DNA of 64,000 nt, from positions 1,364,001 through 1,428,000 of the forward strand of contig NZ_CP096032.1 in the NCBI RefSeq assembly GCF_023115425.1, in the 5' to 3' direction. Under the pieces are notes generated by a model, which saw only the letters and a list, made by a program, of their open reading frames with translations, was not told the origin of the DNA and did not search any database. Both the position numbers and the translations under genes were made by a program. Each line of letters starts with the position of its first letter. Position 1 is the first letter of the stretch. The stretch is from Synechococcus sp. A10-1-5-1. GTDB lineage: Bacteria; Cyanobacteriota; Cyanobacteriia; PCC-6307; Cyanobiaceae. Below, piece after piece: positions 1,562 through 61,744 of the stretch.

Positions 1562-1594
1562 CTACTGCTTATGCAGAATCCGCATAAGCAGTAG
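1562..1594. promoter_or_regulatory. Perfect 13-bp inverted repeat, operator candidate
   Basis: Arms CTACTGCTTATGC (1562-1574) and GCATAAGCAGTAG (1582-1594) match perfectly around a 7-base spacer. Neither strand has a U-tract after the stem, so it is not a typical intrinsic terminator. It ends 49 bp before the GTG of a ribbon-helix-helix gene. Such proteins often repress their own promoter by binding palindromes, so an auto-operator is the simplest reading (inference). Confidence 0.5.
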
Positions 1595-2497: not shown

Positions 2498-3949
2498 TCA
2501 AGCCTTCGGCAACGAGGCATAGAGCGCCTTGAAATGCGCCTGCTGCTTCTTGTGGCTGACGATCGGTGCGGGGTAGCCGCGGCGCTCCATCGGGGCGATC
2601 TCACCGCTGAGCAGGTCCTTGGTGTTGACGTGCTTCAACTCCGGTAGCCAGCTGCGGATGTAGTCGCCGTCTGGGTCGAACTTGCTGGCCTGCGTCGCCG
2701 GGTTAAAGATCCGCAGGGGCTTGGGATCCATCCCGCTGCTGGCGCTCCATTGCCAGCCACCGTTATTGGCAGCCAGATCGCCATCAACCAGGCGGGCCAT
2801 GAAAGCGGTCTCGCCCAGGCGCCAATCGCAGATGAGGTCCTTCACCAAATAGGAGGCCACGATCATCCGGCAGCGGTTGTGCATCCAGCCGCTCTCGTTG
2901 AGCTGTCGCATCGCCGCATCGATGATCGGCATGCCCGTCAGCCCATCGCACCAGGCCTGATAGCGATCAGGGTCGTTCTCCCAGGGGAAGAGCTTCCACT
3001 GGGGCCGGTAAGGACCATCGGCGAGCTCCGGGAAATGGAAGAGCGCCTGTTGGTAAAACTCGCGCCACGCCAACTCCTGCTCCCAAACCTGAATCGACTC
3101 GCGCTGCTCATCGCTGCGGGCCAAGGCCTTGGCTTGCTGCGCCGCATCCCAGGCCTGACGAGGACTGAGGGTCCCGAACTTCAACGCTGCCGAGAGGCCC
3201 GAAGTCCCCGCCTCTCCAGGCATGTTCCGGCCGGGCTCGTAATACAAGAGAGGGCCGCCATCACAGAAGGCCTGGAGTTGCTGCGCTGCCGCGGTCTCAC
3301 CCGGGCGACAGGGGCAGAGATCCTTTCCAGCAAAGGTTTTGCCAAAGGTCTCCAGGGACGGCAGCTCCCGGAGCAATGGCAGTCGCTCTGGCAGCTCGAC
3401 CCCATGGGCCAGAAGTCCCTGGGGAGCAGGCCGCAGCGCCAGTTCTCCTGCCGCAGCCCTGCGCTCAACCTGGCCAAACCAGTTGCGTTTGAACGGTCCG
3501 TACACCCTGTACGGATCTCCGGCGCCAGTCTTCAGGGCCTCTGGGGCGACCAAGAGCTGATCCCAGTCCACAAGGACCTTTTGCCCCTGGGCCTGCAGCG
3601 CCGCGGCCACTCGCCGATCGCGTTCACGCCCGTAGGGCTCCACATCACGGTTCCAGGCGACGACGCCTGCACCGATCGCCTCGGCCAACTGCGGCAAGAC
3701 CTCCGCGGGATCGCCTTGGAGCAGTAGCAACTCACTGCCGGCCTGGCGCCAATTGGCCTGGAGCTCCTTCAGGCTCTCGAGTAGAAACCAGACCCGCGCC
3801 GGGGCCATATCAGCCGCCGACAGGATCGCCGGATCCAGCACAAACACGCCGGTGACCGCAGGGGTAGCTGCCGCCGCTGCCGCCAAGCCGAGGTTGTCGG
3901 CCAGACGCAGATCACGGCGATGCCAAAACAGCCAACGCTCAGGTGCCAT
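2498..3949 (-). CDS. phrB: Deoxyribodipyrimidine photolyase (cryptochrome/photolyase family)
   Basis: Light-driven repair of cyclobutane pyrimidine dimers in DNA, using FAD and an antenna chromophore. The 483 residues begin with the photolyase alpha/beta domain (WLFWHRRDLRLADNLG). The C-terminal helical FAD domain carries WREFYQQALFHFPE, GWMHNRCRMIVASYLVKDL and the NNGGWQWSASSGMD core that contacts FAD and substrate. Length is normal for a class I CPD photolyase; the deazaflavin versus folate antenna cannot be decided. The ATG overlaps the NUDIX gene stop by one base (TGATG), so the two are co-transcribed. Confidence 0.95.
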   Translation of the reverse strand: MAPERWLFWHRRDLRLADNLGLAAAAAATPAVTGVFVLDPAILSAADMAPARVWFLLESLKELQANWRQAGSELLLLQGDPAEVLPQLAEAIGAGVVAWNRDVEPYGRERDRRVAAALQAQGQKVLVDWDQLLVAPEALKTGAGDPYRVYGPFKRNWFGQVERRAAAGELALRPAPQGLLAHGVELPERLPLLRELPSLETFGKTFAGKDLCPCRPGETAAAQQLQAFCDGGPLLYYEPGRNMPGEAGTSGLSAALKFGTLSPRQAWDAAQQAKALARSDEQRESIQVWEQELAWREFYQQALFHFPELADGPYRPQWKLFPWENDPDRYQAWCDGLTGMPIIDAAMRQLNESGWMHNRCRMIVASYLVKDLICDWRLGETAFMARLVDGDLAANNGGWQWSASSGMDPKPLRIFNPATQASKFDPDGDYIRSWLPELKHVNTKDLLSGEIAPMERRGYPAPIVSHKKQQAHFKALYASLPKA

Positions 3950-4509
3950 CAGATCCCCAGCACCTGCTTGGCGCGGAACCAGGCGGTCACGCTTTTTCCA
4001 TCGAGGTACTCGTCGCCGCTAGCGATCAGCTGATCAAGTTCAGCCGGCGTCATCAGCACCACCTCCAGATCCTCATCGTCATCCCCTGGAGGCCGCTCGC
4101 TCAGTTCCGTGAGATCGCGGGCCAAGAACAGGTGGATCACCTCATCGGAGTAGCCCGGACAAGGCAAGAGTGCCCCCAGTGCATCCCATTGGGTCGCGGA
4201 GTAACCGGCTTCCTCTTGCAGCTCCCGCTGCATCGTGCTGAGCGGGGTCTCACCAGGATCCAAGGTGCCGGCCGGGAACTCCAGCAACCGGGTCGCCACC
4301 GCAAAGCGGTACTGGCGCAGAACCACAACGCGACCATCGGCAAGCACCGGTACCGCCAGGGATGCACCCGGGTGCTTCACCATCCCGAAGGTTCCCTCGA
4401 CACCCATCGGGAGCTGCATCCGATTGACCTCAAAGCGCAGCTTGCGTACATCGAGACTGGCGGTGGTCTCGAGCTGGCGCGCAGGCTCTGGAGCGGGCAG
4501 TGGCGCCAT
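3949..4509 (-). CDS. NUDIX hydrolase, ADP-ribose pyrophosphatase-like
   Basis: Hydrolyses a nucleoside diphosphate linked to another group; ADP-ribose or a nucleotide sugar is likely. The NUDIX box G(x5)E(x7)REUxEExGU is clear: GTLDPGETPLSTMQRELQEE followed by AGY. The upstream strand LRQYRFAVATRLLEFPAG is typical of the ADP-ribose pyrophosphatase subgroup. The 186-residue length fits. It is co-directional with and overlaps phrB. In related picocyanobacteria, as I recall, this gene lies next to folK; here three glycan genes on the other strand separate them. Confidence 0.9.
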   Translation of the reverse strand: MAPLPAPEPARQLETTASLDVRKLRFEVNRMQLPMGVEGTFGMVKHPGASLAVPVLADGRVVVLRQYRFAVATRLLEFPAGTLDPGETPLSTMQRELQEEAGYSATQWDALGALLPCPGYSDEVIHLFLARDLTELSERPPGDDDEDLEVVLMTPAELDQLIASGDEYLDGKSVTAWFRAKQVLGI

Positions 4510-4568
4510 GGGGAACTAGAGGCTGGTCATGAAACTAGCCTCAGAAGAACCGAGCTTGCAGAAGACCC

Positions 4569-5414
4569 TTGGTCAGAGAGAACGATTCATGCCAATCCAG
4601 AGCTTTGGGTGAACTGAGAAAAAGGCGCGCTTTTTTCTTGCTTGACGAAATTGGCTGGAATCCACTCAAAACAGCCTCATTCGCAACTGGTCTTTCGAGA
4701 TATATCTTTCAATTCATCCGCTTCAGAGTCAGAAGCAAGAAAGCAAACATTGATCAAGACCTGAAGATCTCACCAATTCTGTCTGATTATGCGAAAGAAG
4801 CAGGAGACTCCAGATCTCTATACTTCCTTCAAGACCTTTCGTGCAGTCAATATGTTCTTAGCAAGGCGCCCAATCGCCATATCGACATCGGCTCAAGACT
4901 GGATGGCTTTGTAGCTCAGATCTGCGCATCTAGACCCATCGAAGTCATGGATATCCGACCCACCGAAACACAGATCAAAAACATTTATTTCACCCAAGCA
5001 GACATTTGCAAGCTCAAGCCTGAGCTTGCAGAGAGCTACGACCTAGTGACAAGCCTGCATGCGCTAGAACATATTGGGCTTGGTCGATACGGTGACCCAA
5101 TCGATCCCAATGGGTTTACAAAGGGGCTCGAGAACTGCAGGCGATTGGCAAGAAGTCAGGGGGAAGTCCTCATATCACTGCCAATCGCAAGCACCCCGAA
5201 AGACACAACAGAGTTCAACGCACAAAGAATCTTTAGCTCGAAGACAATCCTTGAAACACTTGCGCACTCATTCGCCAATGACGATCTCAGGTGGTGGTGC
5301 GCATGTGACTCATCGAGGCGACCGATTAGCGGATCAAGCGCTGAGCTTCTTCGATCAACACTCAACGACTTCAGGGGAGTTGGCTTTCTTGCTACCAGCT
5401 GGAAAAAGAAGTGA
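4569..5414 (+). CDS. DUF268-type class I SAM methyltransferase-like protein
   Basis: Probable SAM-dependent methyltransferase of the DUF268 group found in glycan clusters. A Rossmann start HIDIGSRLDGFVA (about 104-116), an acidic strand end (VMDIRP) and a DLVTSLHALEHIGLGRYGDP segment support this. There is no in-frame ATG at the 5' end. The given TTG is the longest option; TTGs at 4605 or 4638 are alternatives, the latter preceded by an AAAAAGG stretch. The 3' end overlaps the next GTG by four bases. The DNA is visibly more AT-rich than phr, folK and chlD around it, which suggests transfer as part of a three-gene cassette. Confidence 0.75.
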   Translation: MVRENDSCQSRALGELRKRRAFFLLDEIGWNPLKTASFATGLSRYIFQFIRFRVRSKKANIDQDLKISPILSDYAKEAGDSRSLYFLQDLSCSQYVLSKAPNRHIDIGSRLDGFVAQICASRPIEVMDIRPTETQIKNIYFTQADICKLKPELAESYDLVTSLHALEHIGLGRYGDPIDPNGFTKGLENCRRLARSQGEVLISLPIASTPKDTTEFNAQRIFSSKTILETLAHSFANDDLRWWCACDSSRRPISGSSAELLRSTLNDFRGVGFLATSWKKK

Positions 5415-6202
5415 AAACAGAACTAAGCATCATTATCGTCGTCAAAAACTCCAAAGACGATCTTAGGAAAACACTTCACTCCATCCGAGCGAACAACACA
5501 GAGCTCCTCAGAGCAAGCGCCGAAATTGTCATCATCGATGGCCTTTCTAGCGATGGCTCATGGGAACTTTCCACAAGAGCAGAGCAGATCACAGGGGTCA
5601 GAACGCAGTGCTACCAACAGCCACCGCAGGGCATTTACCCCGCGATGAACCTTGGCCAATACAAAAGCAGTGGCAACTGGCTGATTTATATCAACGCTGG
5701 AGACATCTTTCATGACTGCACCAATCTAAGCAATATCCTTCAACAATCAAGGAGTAGCGCAATTCAGTTCAAAAGCGCCATCAAGAGACCAAGCAGCAGG
5801 CATGCTTACACAAAAAGCAAGCAGTGGGACAGGTGCCATCAAGCACTGGTCTACAGAAAAGGTAATCACGAGATACTAGGAAGATACAATGAATCACTGA
5901 AGATTTGTTCAGACTCCCTCTTCATAAAGAATCTGGAAGAATCACGTATCGAATACGCAGATCAGATCCTTTCCATCACACAAGTCAGTCCCAACAACGC
6001 CTCAAGAAACCCAAGGCTGGTCAGGGAAGATCTTGAGTCTCTTGCTCGATTTAAAATTGATCACCAGCCCTGGAGAAAACCTCGACTCACCCTTACGGTT
6101 CTCCGCATCGAGGCCGCACTCGGCAGCAGCACGAGCGTGTGGGCGCTTTGCCATATAGGGCGCCTATTTTCTAAATACCAAAAAATAGATGTGAGCGATT
6201 AA
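5411..6202 (+). CDS. Glycosyltransferase family 2 (WcaA-like)
   Basis: Cytoplasmic inverting GT-A enzyme adding a sugar to a surface-glycan intermediate. The 263 residues start with ELSIIIVVKNSKDDLRKTLHS, then IIDGLSSDGSWE (the usual DGSxD variant) and QGIYPAMNLGQYKSSGNWL, the short WcaA-type GT2 pattern in which a YPAMNKG motif replaces the usual second half. GTG start inside GTGA, overlapping the upstream methyltransferase stop. Donor and acceptor are unknown. It is base-compositionally like the upstream gene and unlike the flanking housekeeping genes. Confidence 0.85.
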   Translation: MKTELSIIIVVKNSKDDLRKTLHSIRANNTELLRASAEIVIIDGLSSDGSWELSTRAEQITGVRTQCYQQPPQGIYPAMNLGQYKSSGNWLIYINAGDIFHDCTNLSNILQQSRSSAIQFKSAIKRPSSRHAYTKSKQWDRCHQALVYRKGNHEILGRYNESLKICSDSLFIKNLEESRIEYADQILSITQVSPNNASRNPRLVREDLESLARFKIDHQPWRKPRLTLTVLRIEAALGSSTSVWALCHIGRLFSKYQKIDVSD

Positions 6203-6213
6203 CAGCCTGATCG

Positions 6214-7053
6214 ATGAGGAAATTGGATCTATTAATACAAGGCGGCCTTGGGAACCAGCTACTGCAGTGGGTCCTTGCGAGCACCCTGGCCGCAGGAAAA
6301 CAACGCGAGGTGCGGATCGACACGACCCTGATGCGCTCCTGGAGCCGGTCCAAGCGTGGGCTGAGTCAACGGGAGATCAGTCCGCTACTCGATCCCGCCG
6401 ACAAGATCTGGCACCACTGGCTCCTTGCAAGGGCCCGTCGGCGCCTGCGCCCCCTGGATCGGTCGACGCTGACGGACGTACAACTGCTCGCCATCGCAAG
6501 CAGCGAAGAACTTTTGGCGCTGACCCCGGATCGACTGATCACCCACGGGACAACGCCACTGCTCTTTGAAGCGCCGTTCAAAGAGCAGTGGCTAGACGTC
6601 CACCGGCGTCTGCCTCGGGTCCGAGCACAGGCAGGGCTCGGGGTGCATCTACGCCGCGGCGACTACCTCAATCCGGCGTCAGGCTTCATGGCCATACCCC
6701 TGAGCTACTACCGCCGCGCCATCCAGCGGGTCTTTGAGCAGATGCCGCAGCTGGAACGCCGGATCGTGCTGTTCAGCGATGACCCGGACTGGGGCCAAGT
6801 CCATCTGAACGATGCCAGCTGGGAGCTGGAGATCGCCAGCGGCACACCGGAAGAAGACCTGGCCGCCATGGCCACGATGCGGGCTCTGGTAATCAGCAAC
6901 AGCAGTCTCTCCGCTATTGCCGCCCATCTCGGCGAGAGCTTTGGCGGACTGCAACTAGTCATCTGTCCTGATCAGTGGCTGAGCAATCCCGAGCGCAAAG
7001 CCCTGGGCGATCTGCGCAAACCCAGCTGGATCAGCCTGCCCATCCAGCCCTAG
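6214..7053 (+). CDS. GT11 alpha-1,2-fucosyltransferase-like glycosyltransferase
   Basis: Likely transfers L-fucose or a related 6-deoxyhexose from a GDP donor. The 279 residues carry the GT11 N-terminal GGLGNQLLQW (10-19), the HLRRGDY motif (145-151) that binds the nucleotide sugar, LFSDDPDW, and a C-terminal STSLSAIAA-like segment (ISNSSLSAIAAHLG). GDP-fucose could come from gmd and fcl at 39-41 kb. It is the third gene of the inserted cassette and is more GC-rich than its two partners. It converges on folK, and the 3' ends overlap by 23 bp with no terminator between them. Confidence 0.85.
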   Translation: MRKLDLLIQGGLGNQLLQWVLASTLAAGKQREVRIDTTLMRSWSRSKRGLSQREISPLLDPADKIWHHWLLARARRRLRPLDRSTLTDVQLLAIASSEELLALTPDRLITHGTTPLLFEAPFKEQWLDVHRRLPRVRAQAGLGVHLRRGDYLNPASGFMAIPLSYYRRAIQRVFEQMPQLERRIVLFSDDPDWGQVHLNDASWELEIASGTPEEDLAAMATMRALVISNSSLSAIAAHLGESFGGLQLVICPDQWLSNPERKALGDLRKPSWISLPIQP

Positions 7054-7600
7054 GGGCCATCAACAGCGGTTGCTGCTGCTCACCAGCCAAGACCTCCTCG
7101 AGCTGGGATTGAAAGCCTGCGTCGAGAGCCGCCAGCGGAGCCAGGACAAAAGCCCGCTCGCGCCAACGGGGATGGGGCAGTTCCAACTCAGGGCTTTCGA
7201 GCTGCAACCCGCCCCACCAGAGCAAATCCAGATCCAGCGTGCGCGGCCCCCAGCGCTCCTCTCGCACCCGACCAAATTGAAGTTCCAAGGCCTGCAGCCG
7301 GCGAAGTAACCCAAGCGCCACCGACGCGGTGGGCTCAGGTGGCTGATCCACGACCACCACCGCATTGATGTAGTCAGGCTGGTTCGGTGGGCCACCGACC
7401 GGAGCCGTGCGAAAGAGCGGTGACCAGCGCAGACGCACCTCGCCCAAACAGACCTGAATTTCGGTGCTCAAACGAGGCCGCAACGCGATCAGAGTCTCGA
7501 TCGGCCCGCCCGCTGCGCTGGGCAAATTGGCACCAAGCCCAATTGCCAGGCCTTGATCAGCGAGACTGGCGCCCACGACGAAGTCCTCCGGCGTCTCCAT
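7031..7600 (-). CDS. folK: 2-amino-4-hydroxy-6-hydroxymethyldihydropteridine pyrophosphokinase (HPPK)
   Basis: Transfers pyrophosphate from ATP to hydroxymethyl-dihydropterin in folate synthesis. Motifs: [10 protein letters not shown] near the start, [24 protein letters not shown] split around the pterin site, the HPPK signature [12 protein letters not shown], and [18 protein letters not shown]. An ATG at 7600 gives 189 residues. A GTG at 7576, closer to the conserved core, is the alternative. The 7598-7601 CCATGG core supplies both this ATG and the chlD ATG, so the two genes would overlap at their starts if both ATGs are used. Confidence 0.93.
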
Positions 7601-9659
7601 GGTTGCAAGTGGTACTGCCGCCAGGGCCTTTCCCCTGGCCGCCATCACCGGCCACGGCACCCTGAAACTCGCTCTCTTGCTGGCCGCCGTTGATCCCGGC
7701 CTGGGCGGTGTGGTGATCGCCGGCGGACGGGGCACCGGCAAATCCGTCTTGGCCCGAGGCCTGCATGCGCTGCTGCCGCCGATCGACGTCCTTGATGTCG
7801 CGGGCTACGGCCTGAACACCGATCCCCAAGCGCCGGAGGACTGGGATACCTCAACGCGAGCGCGGCTGACGGAACGGGGAGCCGAGGCCGAGCTGCCCAC
7901 CAAGGTCATTCCTGCACCGTTTGTGCAGGTCCCCCTGGGCATCACAGAAGACCGGCTGGTGGGCTCGGTCGATGTCACCGCCTCCCTCGCCAGTGGTGAA
8001 GCGGTCTTCCAGCCTGGCCTGCTGGCAGAAGCCCACCGCGGCGTGCTCTATGTCGATGAGCTGAATCTGCTGGATGACAACGTCACCAACCTGCTTCTAG
8101 CGGCCATCGGCAGCGGCGAAAACCGCGTCGAACGCGAAGGCCTGAGCCTCTCGCACCCATGCCGCTGCCTGCTGATCGCCACCTACAACCCAGAAGAAGG
8201 AGCCATCCGCGATCACCTGCTGGATCGCTTTGCTATCGCCCTCTCGGCCAACCAAGTTCTGGAGCTGGATCAACGGGTCGAGATCACCCGCAGTGCCATC
8301 GGCCACGCCGAATCCAGCGATGCCTTCCGCCAGCGCTGGCAAGAGGAAACCGACGCCCTCTCTACCCAGCTGCTACTGGCGCGCCAGTGGCTGCCGGACG
8401 TCCAGATCAGCCGTGAGCAGATCGCCTATCTGGTGAACGAGGCCCTGCGCGGCGGCGTCGAAGGCCACCGCAGCGAGCTCTACGCCGTGCGCGTCGCCCG
8501 CGCCCACGCTGCCCTCAGCGGCCGGGACCAGGTCGAAGCCGAAGACCTGCAAGTGGCCGTGCGCCTGGTGATCGCTCCGCGGGCGATGCAGCTGCCTCCA
8601 CAGGATCCCGATCAGCAGATGGAGCCACCTCCTCCGCCACCGCCGCCGCAGGGCGAGGAGCCCCCGGAGAACAACGAGCAGGAGCCGGACGAACCCGAAG
8701 AGGACAACGAGAAGGAGGACGAGCAGGAGGAAGAAGACACCCCGGAAGATCAGGCGCCGCCCTCGATCCCCGAGGAGTTCATGCTCGATCCCGAGGCGAT
8801 CGCGATCGATCCGGACCTGCTGCTGTTCAACGCCGGCAAGGCCAAGACCGGTAGCAGCGGCAGCCGGGCGGTGGTCTTCAGTGACTCCCGCGGCCGCTAC
8901 GTCAAGCCGATGCTCCCCCGCGGACCGGTGAAGCGGATTGCTGTGGACGCCACGCTGCGTGCCGCTGCGCCCTATCAAAAAACCCGGCGTGAGCGGGAAC
9001 CACACCGCAAGGTCGTTGTGGAAGACGGAGACCTGCGAGCCAAGCAACTGCAGCGCAAAGCCGGGGCCCTGGTGATCTTCCTGGTGGATGCCAGTGGATC
9101 CATGGCTCTCAACCGGATGCAAAGCGCCAAAGGTGCCGTGATTCGCCTGTTGACCGAGGCCTACGAGAACCGGGACGAAGTCGCCCTGATCCCCTTCCGC
9201 GGTGAAGCCGCAGAAGTGCTCCTACCGCCAACCCGCTCGATCACCGCCGCCCGCCGGCGCCTGGAGTCGATGCCCTGCGGCGGCGGCTCGCCCCTGGCCC
9301 ATGGACTCTCCCAGGCCGCCCGCGTTGGTGCCAATGCCATGGCCACAGGAGAACTGGGCCAGGTGGTGGTTGTGGCCATCACCGACGGCCGCGGGAATGT
9401 GCCCCTGAGCCGCTCCCTGGGTCAGCCCCAGTTGGAAGGCGAAGAGCCGGTGGATCTCAAGGAAGAGGTCAAGCAGGTCGCCAGCAAGTACCGCTCCCTC
9501 GGCATCAAGCTGCTGGTGATCGACACCGAGCGCAAGTTCATCGGCAGCGGCATGGGCAAGGACCTCGCCGACTCCGCCGGCGGCAAGTACGTCCAACTGC
9601 CTAAGGCCAGTGATCAAGCGATCGCGGCGATCGCCATGGAGGCCATCAGCGGGGTCTGA
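7599..9659 (+). CDS. chlD: Magnesium chelatase subunit D
   Basis: With ChlI and ChlH, inserts Mg2+ into protoporphyrin IX, the first chlorophyll-specific step. The 686 residues show an AAA+ domain with GGRGTGKS (42-49), a polyproline stretch then a long acidic linker (about 343-385), and a C-terminal von Willebrand A domain whose MIDAS motif reads DASGSM (about 496-501), with a later TDGRGN. This order is standard for ChlD. The start shares bases with the folK start. It converges on the mlaD-like gene with no intergenic base. Confidence 0.97.
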
Positions 9660-39299: not shown

Positions 39300-40298
39300 T
39301 TAAAGGCGAACGAGCTGTTGTTTGAGCTGCTCGCGGAAGAGAGCCACGGTGCTGACCAAGCCTTCTTCCAAGGGGATTCGGGCGGTCCAACCCAACGAGG
39401 CTAAGCGGCTCACATCGAGTTGCTTCTTGGGCGTTCCATCGGGCTTCGACGCATCCCAGATGATCTCGCCCGAGAATCCAGTGGCGCGGGCTACCGCCTC
39501 CGCCAGCTGGCGGATGGTGAGGTCCAAACCAGTGCCGACGTTGAGGAACGGCAAGGGCTGGCCGGCATCATCCAAGGGGGCCGACGCTGAGCTGGGGTCC
39601 CAATGCTCCAATGCGAAAACACAGGCCTCACCCAGGTCGTCCACGTGCAAAAACTCCCGCAGGGGGGAGCCCGTCCCCCAGCAGGTCACCGTGGCATCAC
39701 CGCGCTCGGCTGCTTCATGAAAACGGCGGATCAACGCCGGCAACACATGGCTATGGGTGGGGTGATAGTTGTCGCCCGGCCCGTAGAGGTTGGTGGGCAT
39801 CAGGCTGACGGCATCAAAACCATACTGCTGCCGTAGGGCCTGACCAAGCTTGATCCCAGCGATCTTGGCAATCGCGTACCACTCATTGGTGGGCTCAAGA
39901 GCCCCCGTCAGCAAAGCCTCCTCGCGAATGGGCTGCTGGGCAAACTTGGGGTAAATGCAGCTGCTGCCCAGAAACAAGAGGCGGCGCACACCGGCTTGCC
40001 AGGCCGCTTCGATGACATGGTTCTGAATTTTCAGGTTGGAGAGCAAGAAATCGGCTGGATAGCTGCTGTTGGCCTGAATGCCCCCGACCTTGGCTGCAGC
40101 CAACACGACCACGTCCGGGCGTTCAGCCTCGAAGCAAGCTTTCACCGCCGAGGGGTCCTCGAGGTCCAAGGCCGCCCGATCCAACAGCACCTGCTGGCCA
40201 TAACCAGCGCGCTGCAAAGCGCGGGAGATGGCACCTCCGGCCATGCCGCGATGCCCCGCGATGAAAAAGCGGTCCTCGCTGGAAATCAACGTGCCCAT
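39300..40298 (-). CDS. fcl: GDP-L-fucose synthase
   Basis: Epimerase/reductase (WcaG) that turns GDP-4-keto-6-deoxymannose into GDP-L-fucose with NADPH. The 332 residues include the Rossmann start FIAGHRGMAGGAI, GSSCIYPKFAQQPI, the YAIAKIAG catalytic YxxxK and LMPTNLYGPGDNY. It overlaps gmd by one base (TGATG), so both activities are produced together. GDP-fucose may feed the GT11-like gene at 6214. Confidence 0.95.
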   Translation of the reverse strand: MGTLISSEDRFFIAGHRGMAGGAISRALQRAGYGQQVLLDRAALDLEDPSAVKACFEAERPDVVVLAAAKVGGIQANSSYPADFLLSNLKIQNHVIEAAWQAGVRRLLFLGSSCIYPKFAQQPIREEALLTGALEPTNEWYAIAKIAGIKLGQALRQQYGFDAVSLMPTNLYGPGDNYHPTHSHVLPALIRRFHEAAERGDATVTCWGTGSPLREFLHVDDLGEACVFALEHWDPSSASAPLDDAGQPLPFLNVGTGLDLTIRQLAEAVARATGFSGEIIWDASKPDGTPKKQLDVSRLASLGWTARIPLEEGLVSTVALFREQLKQQLVRL

Positions 40299-59199: not shown

Positions 59200-60468
59200 T
59201 CAAGCCGAGAGGATGCTGACCAGCTGATCAATCTCGGTCAACTTAAAGGTCCGCTCCTTCGGAAGTTCCGTGTCCGGATGTAGTGCCTTCAACGTCACGA
59301 TTCCCTGCTCCACCTCGCCATCGCCTAGCACGGCAGCCCAGGCTGAACCGCTTCGATCAGCTCGTTTGAACTGCTTGCCAAAGGCTGAACCCGAGGAATC
59401 CATCTCGACCCTCAATCCACGCTGCCTGAGCTGCCTCGCCAGAACAAGCGCAGACCATTGAGCCTGCTCACCGCGATTCACCACATACAGATCGGGAGCA
59501 TCAGTAGTCACTGGGGCCAGCTGCGAAAGCAGAAGCACCAAACGCTCTAAGCCAATCGCCCAGCCAATGGCGGGCGTCGATGCCCCACCGAGCTGCTCAA
59601 CAAGACCGTCGTAGCGGCCGCCACCACACACGGTGGCCTGAGCCCCGAGCTGATCACTAGTGATTTCAAATGCAGTGTGGCTGTAGTAATCCAAACCACG
59701 TACCAGCCGAGGATTCAAAGCAAAAGGAATTCCAAGAGCTGTCAAGCCGGAGCACACCTGCGCAAAGCGCTCCTGGCTCTCTGGGGACAAGGCATCGGCA
59801 AGCGTCGGGGCATCCACCAATAAGGCTTGGGTGTCCTTGTTCTTGCTGTCGAGAATGCGCAGGGGATTGGTACGCAAGCGCGCCTGAGAATCCTCATCCA
59901 ATTGGGTCTCGCGAGCTGAGAGCCAAGCCACGAGTTCTTCGCGGTAGCGAGCGCGATCTGACGCACTGCCAAGAGAGTTCAGCTCCAGCACCAAACCCTG
60001 GACACCCAAGTCCTGGAGCAGATCCCAAGCTGTCGCAATCGCCTCAACGTCGGAACGCGCTGAGTCAAAGCCCAACATTTCCAGGCCAATCTGGTGAAAC
60101 TGGCGCTGCCGGCCAGCTTGGGGGCGCTCATAGCGGAACATCGGCCCCCCATACCAGAGCCGTTGCGGGCCCTGGCTCAGCAATCCGTGCTGAATCGCTG
60201 CTCGGACCACGGAGGCGGTGCCCTCCGGCCTCAATGTGCAGCTGCGATCCCCACGATCGCTGAAGGTGTACATCTCCTTGCCGACCACATCGGTGGCTTC
60301 GCCGATGCCGCGGGCAAAGAGTTCAGTGGTTTCCAGAACCGGTGTTCGAATCTCCGCGACACGCGCTCTTACGAAGTGGTCACGGGCCGTGGCTTCCACC
60401 CGCTGCCAGAGGCCGATCTGCTCGGGCAACAGATCGACCATGCCCCGCAGACTCTGCAGCTTCGCCAC
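59200..60468 (-). CDS. hisS: Histidyl-tRNA synthetase
   Basis: Charges tRNA-His. 422 residues from a GTG at 60468, reading (M)[16 protein letters not shown]. Class II motif 2 ([19 protein letters not shown]), HisA motif [29 protein letters not shown] and the C-terminal anticodon-binding domain are complete. Two further GTGs lie just upstream, so the start is within two codons. It is divergent from the SGNH gene across a 58-bp gap. Confidence 0.97.
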
Positions 60469-60526
60469 CACCACTCCTGAACTGAGGCCAGTTTGGAGGA
60501 TCAGCGGAAACGGCGACAATGCTGGG

Positions 60527-61744
60527 GTGACTGGACAACCCCACACCTCGCGGCGGCAAGCTGCAGCACTGCTACTGGGCTCAGTGGCCTTCTCAGTGGC
60601 GGCCTTGGAGTTGGGCTGCCGTCTCGTTGGCGTCCAGGCACCCAGGCTTTACCGAACTGATTCCGATCGCGGCTGGACCCTCAAATCCAACGTGCGCACC
60701 CACTGGAGTCAGGAGGGATCCGCTCCAGTGCACACCAATTCCCAGGGCTATCGAGACAGCGAATGGGCCTTGGTGAAGGAGCCGGGCGTTTTGCGCATTG
60801 CCGTTCTTGGCGATTCCTTCACCGAAGCCCTGCAGGTGCCACTGGAGCAAACCTGGGTGAATCAACTGCCCGCGGCGATGGCGGCTGTGCCGGGATGTCG
60901 TCTGCTGAAAGGGTTTCCCAAAGGCGCTGAAACCCTGAATTTCGGAGTCGGCGGTTACGGAACGGGGCAGAGCTGGCTGACCTGGCAAAAGGACGCCCAG
61001 CGGTTTCAACCGCAAGTTGTCCTTCACGCCGTCTACTTCGAAAACGACCTCAGGGACAACATTAAGAGCGAACGGGGGAGTGGCTCCGGACCAACGTTTT
61101 CACTCCATCAAGGCAACCTGAATCGCAGCGACGCCTTCCGCAGCAGCCCGGACTATCGCTTCAGACAGTCCTTTGCCGGACGACTGAGCGACTGGGTCCT
61201 GAGCTGGAGCCGTCTCGCCCAGTTGATCAACCAACTCAAGAATCTGCACAATGCTCGGGCTGGGGAAGAGTGCGATGCAGCTGGCTGCACTTTTTTCCCG
61301 CTGGGTCCTGATGGAACCAAGCTCTATGGACAAGACCCAGCCGACCTGAGACAGGGATGGGAGGTCTTCTGGGCCATCCTGAAAACCTGGAAGCAAGAAG
61401 CCCAGGTTGCTGGGAGCCAGCTTGTTGTGACCAGTGTGACCACACCGCCGCAGCTCTGGCCCAAACCAGAGGACCGTCAGGCAGAGATCAACAAGCACGG
61501 TCTGGACTGGTTCAAACCGGAGAAGCAGCTCGGAGCGGTCCTCAAAGCCGATGGCATCCCGTATCTGCCGCTTGCCCAGGACCTGCAGCAACAGGCGGAT
61601 GAACAAGGTTTAATTGCCCATGGTTTTGCCGGACAAAAACCTGGACCTGGCTATGGCCATTGGAACCGAGAGGGGCACAAAGCAGCCGCAACCGTTCTTG
61701 CCCGAAAGCTCTGCTCCCTGGACCTGCCCCTGATCAATGGTTGA
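60527..61744 (+). CDS. SGNH/GDSL hydrolase-like protein with N-terminal membrane anchor
   Basis: 405 residues from a GTG. An N-terminal TM helix or uncleaved signal (about 11-31) is followed by a stretch typical of the family and the nucleophile block [12 protein letters not shown] (Ser97). A later [11 protein letters not shown] supplies the catalytic His. Such anchored enzymes remove or transfer acyl groups on surface glycans or lipids. The neighbouring galE and polysaccharide genes support that role, but the substrate is unknown. RBS weak; no in-frame ATG nearby. Confidence 0.75.

Follow-up and report, generated by a model that had tools for sequence, protein, structure and literature searches.

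Accessory-gene integration hotspots flanked by core genes are a known kind of locus, and mobile islands of the tycheposon type are tRNA-associated. A larger class of laterally gained DNA is formed by the genomic islands of marine picocyanobacteria, which, in the part of PMC7522525 drawn on here, were called in 10-kb windows with more than half of their coding bases gained, a scale at which a slot as small as the one described here would probably be missed. Our subject is a stretch of 64,000 nucleotides (hereafter the window; positions 1,364,001 to 1,428,000 of contig NZ_CP096032.1) from Synechococcus sp. A10-1-5-1, whose genome is a single contig of 2.40 Mb. Between folK and a NUDIX hydrolase gene, the window carries three plus-strand genes that encode a DUF268 methyltransferase, a family 2 glycosyltransferase (GT2), and a fucosyltransferase-like protein of family GT11. 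We consider it likely that the folK–NUDIX junction is a recurrent insertion slot and that its occupant here is a two-layer glycan-tailoring operon, in which an older GT2–GT11 pair had its upstream part replaced.

Anatomy of the operon and its borders

The methyltransferase gene lies at 4569..5414 (Pfam DUF268, 2.7e-10), the GT2 gene at 5411..6202 (Pfam Glycos_transf_2, 9e-11), and the GT11 gene at 6214..7053 (Pfam Glyco_transf_11, 9.6e-12). All three are open reading frames (ORFs) on the plus strand at the positions given by an earlier sequence-only reading of this DNA (the original prediction), and all score above the Pfam gathering score. The end of the methyltransferase gene overlaps the start of the GT2 gene by 4 bp (GTGA), and 11 bp separate GT2 from GT11, so that the three genes look like a single operon. 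The left border of the slot is the NUDIX hydrolase gene (3949..4509, minus strand; Pfam NUDIX, 6.8e-17), whose start codon is the left edge of conserved DNA. The right border is folK (7031..7600, minus strand; TIGR01498, 1.7e-29), and here GT11 and folK overlap tail to tail by 23 bp (7031..7053). The insert was thus correctly described as ending 23 bp within the 3' end of folK, which ends at 7031, and as lacking a terminator there, with no terminator-like site found on the plus strand near the GT11 end. The longest ORF of folK extends to 7741, with the HPPK domain beginning at residue 67, and a start near 7600 fits HPPK better.

The folK–NUDIX junction across the family

We sampled 201 family genomes, the window's included, in which NUDIX was matched in 181 and folK in 184; pairs were drawn from the best 150 of the 181 NUDIX genomes and the best 150 of the 184 folK genomes. 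Among the matches listed, to which all pair counts refer, 132 genomes have both genes, and 127 of these have them on one contig. The two genes share a strand, with folK upstream, in 127/127 of the same-contig pairs and are at most 5 kb apart in 126/127, which bears out the proposal that the operon sits inside a conserved housekeeping block. For the 126 pairs within 5 kb, the gap is shorter than 300 bp in 105 and measures 592–2524 bp in 21, the window's being the largest of the 21 filled slots, and the junction is therefore a recurrent insertion site.

The cargo of the 21 filled slots consists of an ABC transporter (6), a PIN-domain protein (5), a membrane protein (3), a deaminase (2), the glycan operon of the window (1), a virginiamycin-B-lyase-like protein (1), and a PPC-repeat protein (1), with two slots left without assignment. 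Where a class has more than one member, a single representative was assigned by Pfam (for the membrane protein, by eye), and tblastn against it assigned the rest, at an identity as low as 40% for one PIN protein. With the same core borders, at least seven kinds of cargo, and empty sites, the slot has the properties of an integration hotspot. No tRNA was found at the slot in 31 loci, filled and empty, nor within the 64-kb window, and no mobile-element gene was present among the proteins scanned at the locus.

Within the genus (25 genomes, 18 with a NUDIX match), both borders fall within the stretch examined in 16. Seven of these slots are empty (<300 bp; G009, G092, G064, G177, G211, G213, and G210) and nine are filled, by the operon in the window, by PIN genes in G115, G150, G200, and G189, by virginiamycin-B-lyase-like (Vgb-like) genes in G165, G208, and G206, and by a membrane protein gene in G214; contig ends cut the slot in two more (G207 and G134). 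No GT11 match was found at the slot in the other 24 genus genomes, the slot being out of view in the seven without a NUDIX match, and across the other 200 family genomes sampled neither the methyltransferase, GT2, nor GT11 had a match (E<=1e-5) at the slot. The window's own genome holds no second copy of the GT11 protein or of the methyltransferase DNA.

Some occupants of the slot have features of their own. The PIN-domain (toxin-type) genes (in L028, L029, L030, L032, and L036) are in some cases preceded by an antitoxin-like frame, as judged by eye. The membrane protein found in G072, G121, and G099 has relatives across folK, beside chlD, in several congeners (L027, L028, L029, L030, and L031). 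In G075 (L055), the 17.4 kb separating folK and NUDIX are a large insertion, AT-rich in part, that encodes an ABC transporter. It also contains a short remnant of the ABC transporter occupying the slot in other genomes.

Two proposed layers within the operon

A scan of genome contigs for GT11 found one relative, a 5,256-bp contig (L068) of the metagenome-assembled genome (MAG) Synechococcus sp. BS301-5m-G53. It represents the same locus, and its gene order is phr, NUDIX (97% identical), GT2, GT11, folK, and chlD, and no methyltransferase match was found on it. The GT11 of L068 is 77% identical to that of the window and GC-rich, and its GT2 gene is also GC-rich. Homology between the two sequences by blastn is limited to 3372–4523 and 6235–9483 and is broken from 4523 to 6235. 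They share the right-hand junction as well as the GT11 stop codon in folK DNA. This stop (TAG, 7051–7053) is folK coding DNA and is present as CCCTAG at the empty sites of the relatives G092 and G009; GT11 therefore ends in host sequence. A swapped stop codon in folK was considered and dropped, since folK, as we read the aligned ends, stops at one and the same position in the window, L068, G092, G009, and G211.

The original prediction contrasted AT-rich methyltransferase and GT2 genes with a GC-rich GT11 gene. The contrast holds, with a GC content of 0.478, 0.472, and 0.625, respectively, and of 0.50, 0.53, and 0.74 at third codon positions (GC3), but the break does not fall at the gene boundary. 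The GC change-point of the insert is at 6241 (support 6234–6277), inside GT11 near codons 8–10, where the conserved QGGLGNQ motif is encoded. Over the first 15 alignment columns of GT11, the GC content is 39% for the window and 62% for L068, and beyond them both genes are GC-rich. The 5' end of GT11 thus appears chimeric, and the apparently newer, AT-rich module comprises the leader, the methyltransferase gene, the GT2 gene, and the first 8–9 codons of GT11 (4514..6240, plus strand). The new leader holds a 9-bp hairpin (4519..4542, no strand assigned) whose folding is not unusual (z -1.34).

Codon usage divides the operon in the same place. The codon score of GT11 is 0.154 and falls inside the leave-one-out range given by 16 core genes (0.061–0.306; the names of several of these are presumed), while the methyltransferase (-0.223) and GT2 (-0.195) fall outside the core range, like many genes of the glycan island described below. 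Between the window and L068, synonymous divergence (dS) is 0.78 for GT11, 0.71 for folK, 0.58 for chlD, and 0.48 for NUDIX, and the ratio of nonsynonymous to synonymous divergence (dN/dS) is 0.19 for GT11 and 0.18 for folK. Because its codon usage is host-like, its dN/dS is low, and its dS is like that of folK, we take GT11 to be an old resident that has probably been evolving next to folK since about the time the lineages separated.

The GT2 genes at the same slot are far more diverged: the proteins are 37–38% identical, silent sites are saturated, and dN is 0.79, compared with 0.148 for GT11. Even so, each is the other's closest relative found. With the L068 GT2 as query against 170 family genomes, the window GT2 was the best match (E 1.7e-56; next 2.9e-17), and with the window GT2 as query against 11 loci, L068 ranked first (4.5e-59; next 7.6e-14). 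The methyltransferase and the AT-rich GT2 seem to have arrived later, in place of an older GT2. The name "WcaA-like" proposed for this GT2 is not borne out, as no WcaA model is among the NCBIfam models matching it at E<=1e-4; these are TIGR04283, WcaE, TIGR03111, and PRK10073 only, all far below their cut-offs, with TIGR04283 and WcaE the best.

The same data bear on a single recent insertion, in which all three genes would have come from one donor of mixed composition and L068 would have gained a related cassette independently at the hotspot. The genes do form a compact plus-strand operon, and a hotspot is open to repeated hits. GT11 and folK, however, have diverged from L068 to about the same extent, the two loci have a common right junction and stop codon in folK DNA, and the compositional break lies inside a gene; we regard a single insertion as unlikely. 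For the same reasons the original interpretation, in which the three genes are one insertion and GT11 was acquired separately, is not sustained: L068 holds GT2 and GT11 at the same site, and its GT11 has diverged as much as folK.

Empty sites and flanking-gene trees

Comparing NUDIX–folK spacing in related genomes, as the original prediction had proposed, revealed near-empty sites in the nearest complete relatives, G092 and G009, with about 50 bp between folK and NUDIX. Homology to the window by blastn ends at 4513 (G092) or 4511 (G009), just past the start codon of NUDIX, and picks up again at 7038 (G092) or 7040 (G009). The observation of an accessory insertion is therefore confirmed by empty relatives, and the interpretation given to it is partly supported, with two layers in place of one.

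Slot content conflicts with the trees of the flanking genes. The topology ((window,G092),(G009,L068)) is strongly supported by the chlD and folK trees and is recovered with NUDIX, at 89/87 for the window and G092 pair; the phr tree, which has no G092 row, is consistent with it. Filled and empty states split both pairs. Of the outer flanks, phr on the left (2498..3949, minus strand) is a DNA photolyase gene with Pfam FAD_binding_7 and DNA_photolyase domains, TIGR03556 being below its cut-off, and on the right 7599..9659 (plus strand; Pfam Mg_chelatase and VWA) is a gene that we take to be chlD, as originally named. The empty leaders of G092 and G009 are clearly alike, their score being reached by 0/500 shuffles, and the L068 leader resembles that of G009 (1/500) and, less so, that of G092 (6/500). 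This similarity speaks for a single origin of the empty allele and for its exchange between lineages. With four genomes, two histories fit: repeated loss of an ancestral pair (or its repeated replacement by the empty allele), or transfer of alleles between lineages through recombination in the flanks.

A related possibility is that GT2–GT11 is ancestral to the four-genome clade and was deleted in G092 and G009, while the window GT2 diverged fast in place. The divergence of GT11 fits such vertical descent, and the empty sites contain a short, partly GT11-like stretch beside the folK end, a resemblance partly explained by the conserved folK end itself. A GT2 at about 37% identity beside a GT11 at 77%, the AT-rich leader, the added methyltransferase, and the sharp GC break all argue for replacement over drift, which makes drift in place improbable as a full account, though ancestral presence followed by losses is also compatible with the replacement that we favour.

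One further genome, G144, was rejected as a relative of the slot; its distant GT11 and GT2 lie on one 5.1-kb contig with none of the slot's border genes. On this contig (L250), GT2, other glycosyltransferase-like frames, and the distant GT11 lie beside what, by eye, resembles hisS, the gene that flanks the window's glycan island as well (59200–60546).

The GT11 protein

Fucosyltransferases of CAZy family GT11 (PF01531) are of the FUT1/FUT2 type, and the motifs GGLGNQ and HxRRxDY mark membership. The window protein matches PF01531 with 45.2 bits (cut-off 23.9) over the C-terminal half of the profile, and like known members it has a C-terminal Glyco_transf_11 domain together with the GGLGNQ and HxRRGDY motifs, here as an N-terminal QGGLGNQ and as HLRRGDY. 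In an alignment of 10 proteins, R147 and D150 are invariant and H145 and G149 nearly so. It differs from known GT11 proteins in its distance from them: apart from L068, the best family match (G158) is just 30–33% identical, and the best cyanophage matches (phrog_2644) are about 29% identical. No PDB entry matches GT11 by sequence. The structure model is of moderate confidence (predicted local distance difference test, pLDDT, 70.5), with residues 62–112 poorly modelled, and its first 14 PDB matches are the GDP-fucose fucosyltransferases FUT8, POFUT2, and FUT1, with NodZ at rank 16, all at template modelling (TM) scores below 0.5. Given its low dN/dS against L068, the gene is probably under purifying selection.

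That value also bears on whether the cassette is decaying, functionless cargo. Promoter- and terminator-like sites within 4300–7300 are no more frequent than expected by chance, as such a state would predict. All three frames are nevertheless open, GT11 keeps a dN/dS of 0.19, and conserved motifs are retained in both GT11 and the methyltransferase, leaving decay very improbable.

The GT11 gene also contains a perfect 16-bp inverted repeat with a 6-nt loop (6555..6592), the longest perfect inverted repeat (3–30-nt loop) in the window; the best arm in 200 synonymous shuffles of the gene is 13 bp. L068 has an imperfect repeat at this place, with changes clustered, by eye, in the right arm, a pattern as expected of template-switch mutation. 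The second-best perfect hairpin of the window (1562–1594, 13-bp arms, 7-nt loop) lies inside a small ParG-like ORF (1443–1820).

The DUF268 methyltransferase

The methyltransferase starts with TTG at 4569, and a start at TTG 4605 is possible because homology with its relatives sets in only around residue 20. It belongs to DUF268 (PF03269) with a score of 40.8 bits against a gathering cut-off of 25. The alignment of nine proteins, the window's included, has 30 invariant columns. The window protein keeps the EHIGLGRYGD and FNA.R motifs of the family and differs from it in a diverged C-terminus and in residue 219, which is Q here and H in the eight other aligned proteins. Its structure model (pLDDT 69.8, moderate) has 1051 PDB matches at E<=0.001, with RebM the best (1.1e-08), and these are class I S-adenosylmethionine (SAM) methyltransferases; compared with NodS, the TM score reaches 0.70 by target length. 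The model thus predicts a class I SAM methyltransferase fold, and the glycan-gene neighbourhoods suggest a sugar as substrate. In the accessible text of the literature naming DUF268, no assay of any member was found.

We also examined whether DUF268 and GT11 genes travel together, in a DUF268-centred set of 90 loci made up of 10 cyanobacterial and 80 viral contexts (the best 80 of 94 confirmed). GT11 lies at most 3 kb from DUF268 in 30/90 loci, including 5/10 of the cyanobacterial contexts (L051, L053, L086, L087, and L089); of the remaining five, contig ends truncate at least two (L054 and L063). In the loci that hold a GT11, the nearest one is on the same strand as DUF268 in 36/36. After clustering at 50% identity, GT11 is near DUF268 in 11/36, GT2 in 9/36, and GT4 in 2/36, and the GT11 matches lie nearer, 12/14 of them within 2 kb versus 7/16 of the GT2 matches. 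The converse test counts against the pairing, with DUF268 in 0/80 GT11-centred viral loci (the best 80 among the matches listed). An association that seemed strong is thus weakened by clustering and by the converse test, and we treat it as a lead. That DUF268 proteins are O-methyltransferases acting on the sugar added by GT11 (e.g., to give 2-O-methyl-fucose) and travel with it as a module from cyanobacteria to viruses is, on these counts, doubtful. According to PMC7614267, Caenorhabditis DUF268 proteins belong to clusters of glycosylation genes, and no gene has yet been assigned to the worm methyltransferase acting on alpha-1,2-fucose; if the module were real, DUF268 would be a candidate for that enzyme.

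Sources of the genes in phages, viruses, and plasmids were also sought. A phage source for the methyltransferase was rejected, with 0 matches in 50,697 phage records, as was one for GT11, for which only distant cyanophage GT11 proteins (29%) were found, in 77 records. In viral contigs, single-protein queries confirmed no relatives of the methyltransferase, GT2, or GT11, and alignment queries detected distant DUF268 and GT11 relatives. Plasmid records, queried with the methyltransferase and GT11, gave no match to the former and one distant Prevotella match to the latter.

Glycan context and predicted role

A glycan island of about 42 kb (17174–59203) starts 10 kb from the operon. It is of mixed GC (42–63%) and holds GT2-, GT4-, and GT61-type genes, a bacterial sugar transferase, an aminotransferase, and an fcl-like gene. 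The last, a GDP-fucose-synthase-like gene (39300–40298), scores 446.7 bits against a 500-bit cut-off and lies 32 kb from the operon in the same window, so that distance from donor genes, on which the proposed separate acquisition of GT11 rested, is weak evidence.

The most likely role of the operon is surface-glycan tailoring, as a satellite of the nearby island. GT2 and GT11 would probably build a side branch, with GT11 taking fucose (or a similar sugar) from a GDP-sugar donor, and the methyltransferase may cap a sugar. Picocyanobacterial surface islands are associated with pressure from phages and grazers, and escape from either is a plausible benefit. The operon and the island at ~17–59 kb could together alter a cell-surface polysaccharide or glycoprotein, as antigen-type variation under such pressure.

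Discussion

The history that we favour begins with an older, GC-rich GT2–GT11 pair, as in L068, which would have occupied the slot first. In the window strain, the upstream part would later have been replaced by the AT-rich module of methyltransferase and diverged GT2, through a crossover between the NUDIX start and the DNA encoding the QGGLGNQ motif of GT11. A break within so conserved a motif suggests that the donor, too, probably had a GT11 gene downstream, and the exchange may have proceeded by homologous recombination in the flanks.

Several observations weigh against this history. L068 is a single short MAG contig. The window leader is weakly similar to those of L068 (9/500 shuffles), G092 (11/500), and G009 (152/500), and the two empty alleles look homologous, so that loss and gain are not cleanly ordered on the tree. 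The two insert ends share no stretch of at least 6 bp that would mark a target-site duplication, and the exchange mechanism is therefore one that we infer; nor was a donor with an AT-rich methyltransferase–GT2–GT11 order found. As to function, the window yielded three dehydratase/epimerase-type proteins, 0/3 of which scored as Gmd, and the methyltransferase and GT11 models are moderate (pLDDT about 70), with TM scores of just 0.33–0.46 for the first 14 GT11 matches.

The locus suggests that the surface-glycan diversity of picocyanobacteria is not limited to large islands, that a gap of about 50 bp between housekeeping genes can act as a plug-in site, and that a resident glycosyltransferase can serve as an anchor while its upstream partners are swapped. 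The three-gene cassette also offers a compact test system for DUF268 function.

Among described systems, the islands in the cited part of PMC7522525 resemble this locus in consisting of laterally gained genes, some of them for glycans, at places that vary by strain; they differ in scale, the folK–NUDIX cargo being about 2.5 kb in one intergenic slot. Unlike tRNA-associated islands of the tycheposon type, the slot has no tRNA at its border. It is closest to core-flanked integration hotspots, with which it shares fixed core borders and unrelated cargo by strain, and from which it differs in that a second exchange is visible within the resident cargo. An accessory glycan cassette in such a hotspot is of a known kind; the view that it gives of a modular swap is unusually clear.

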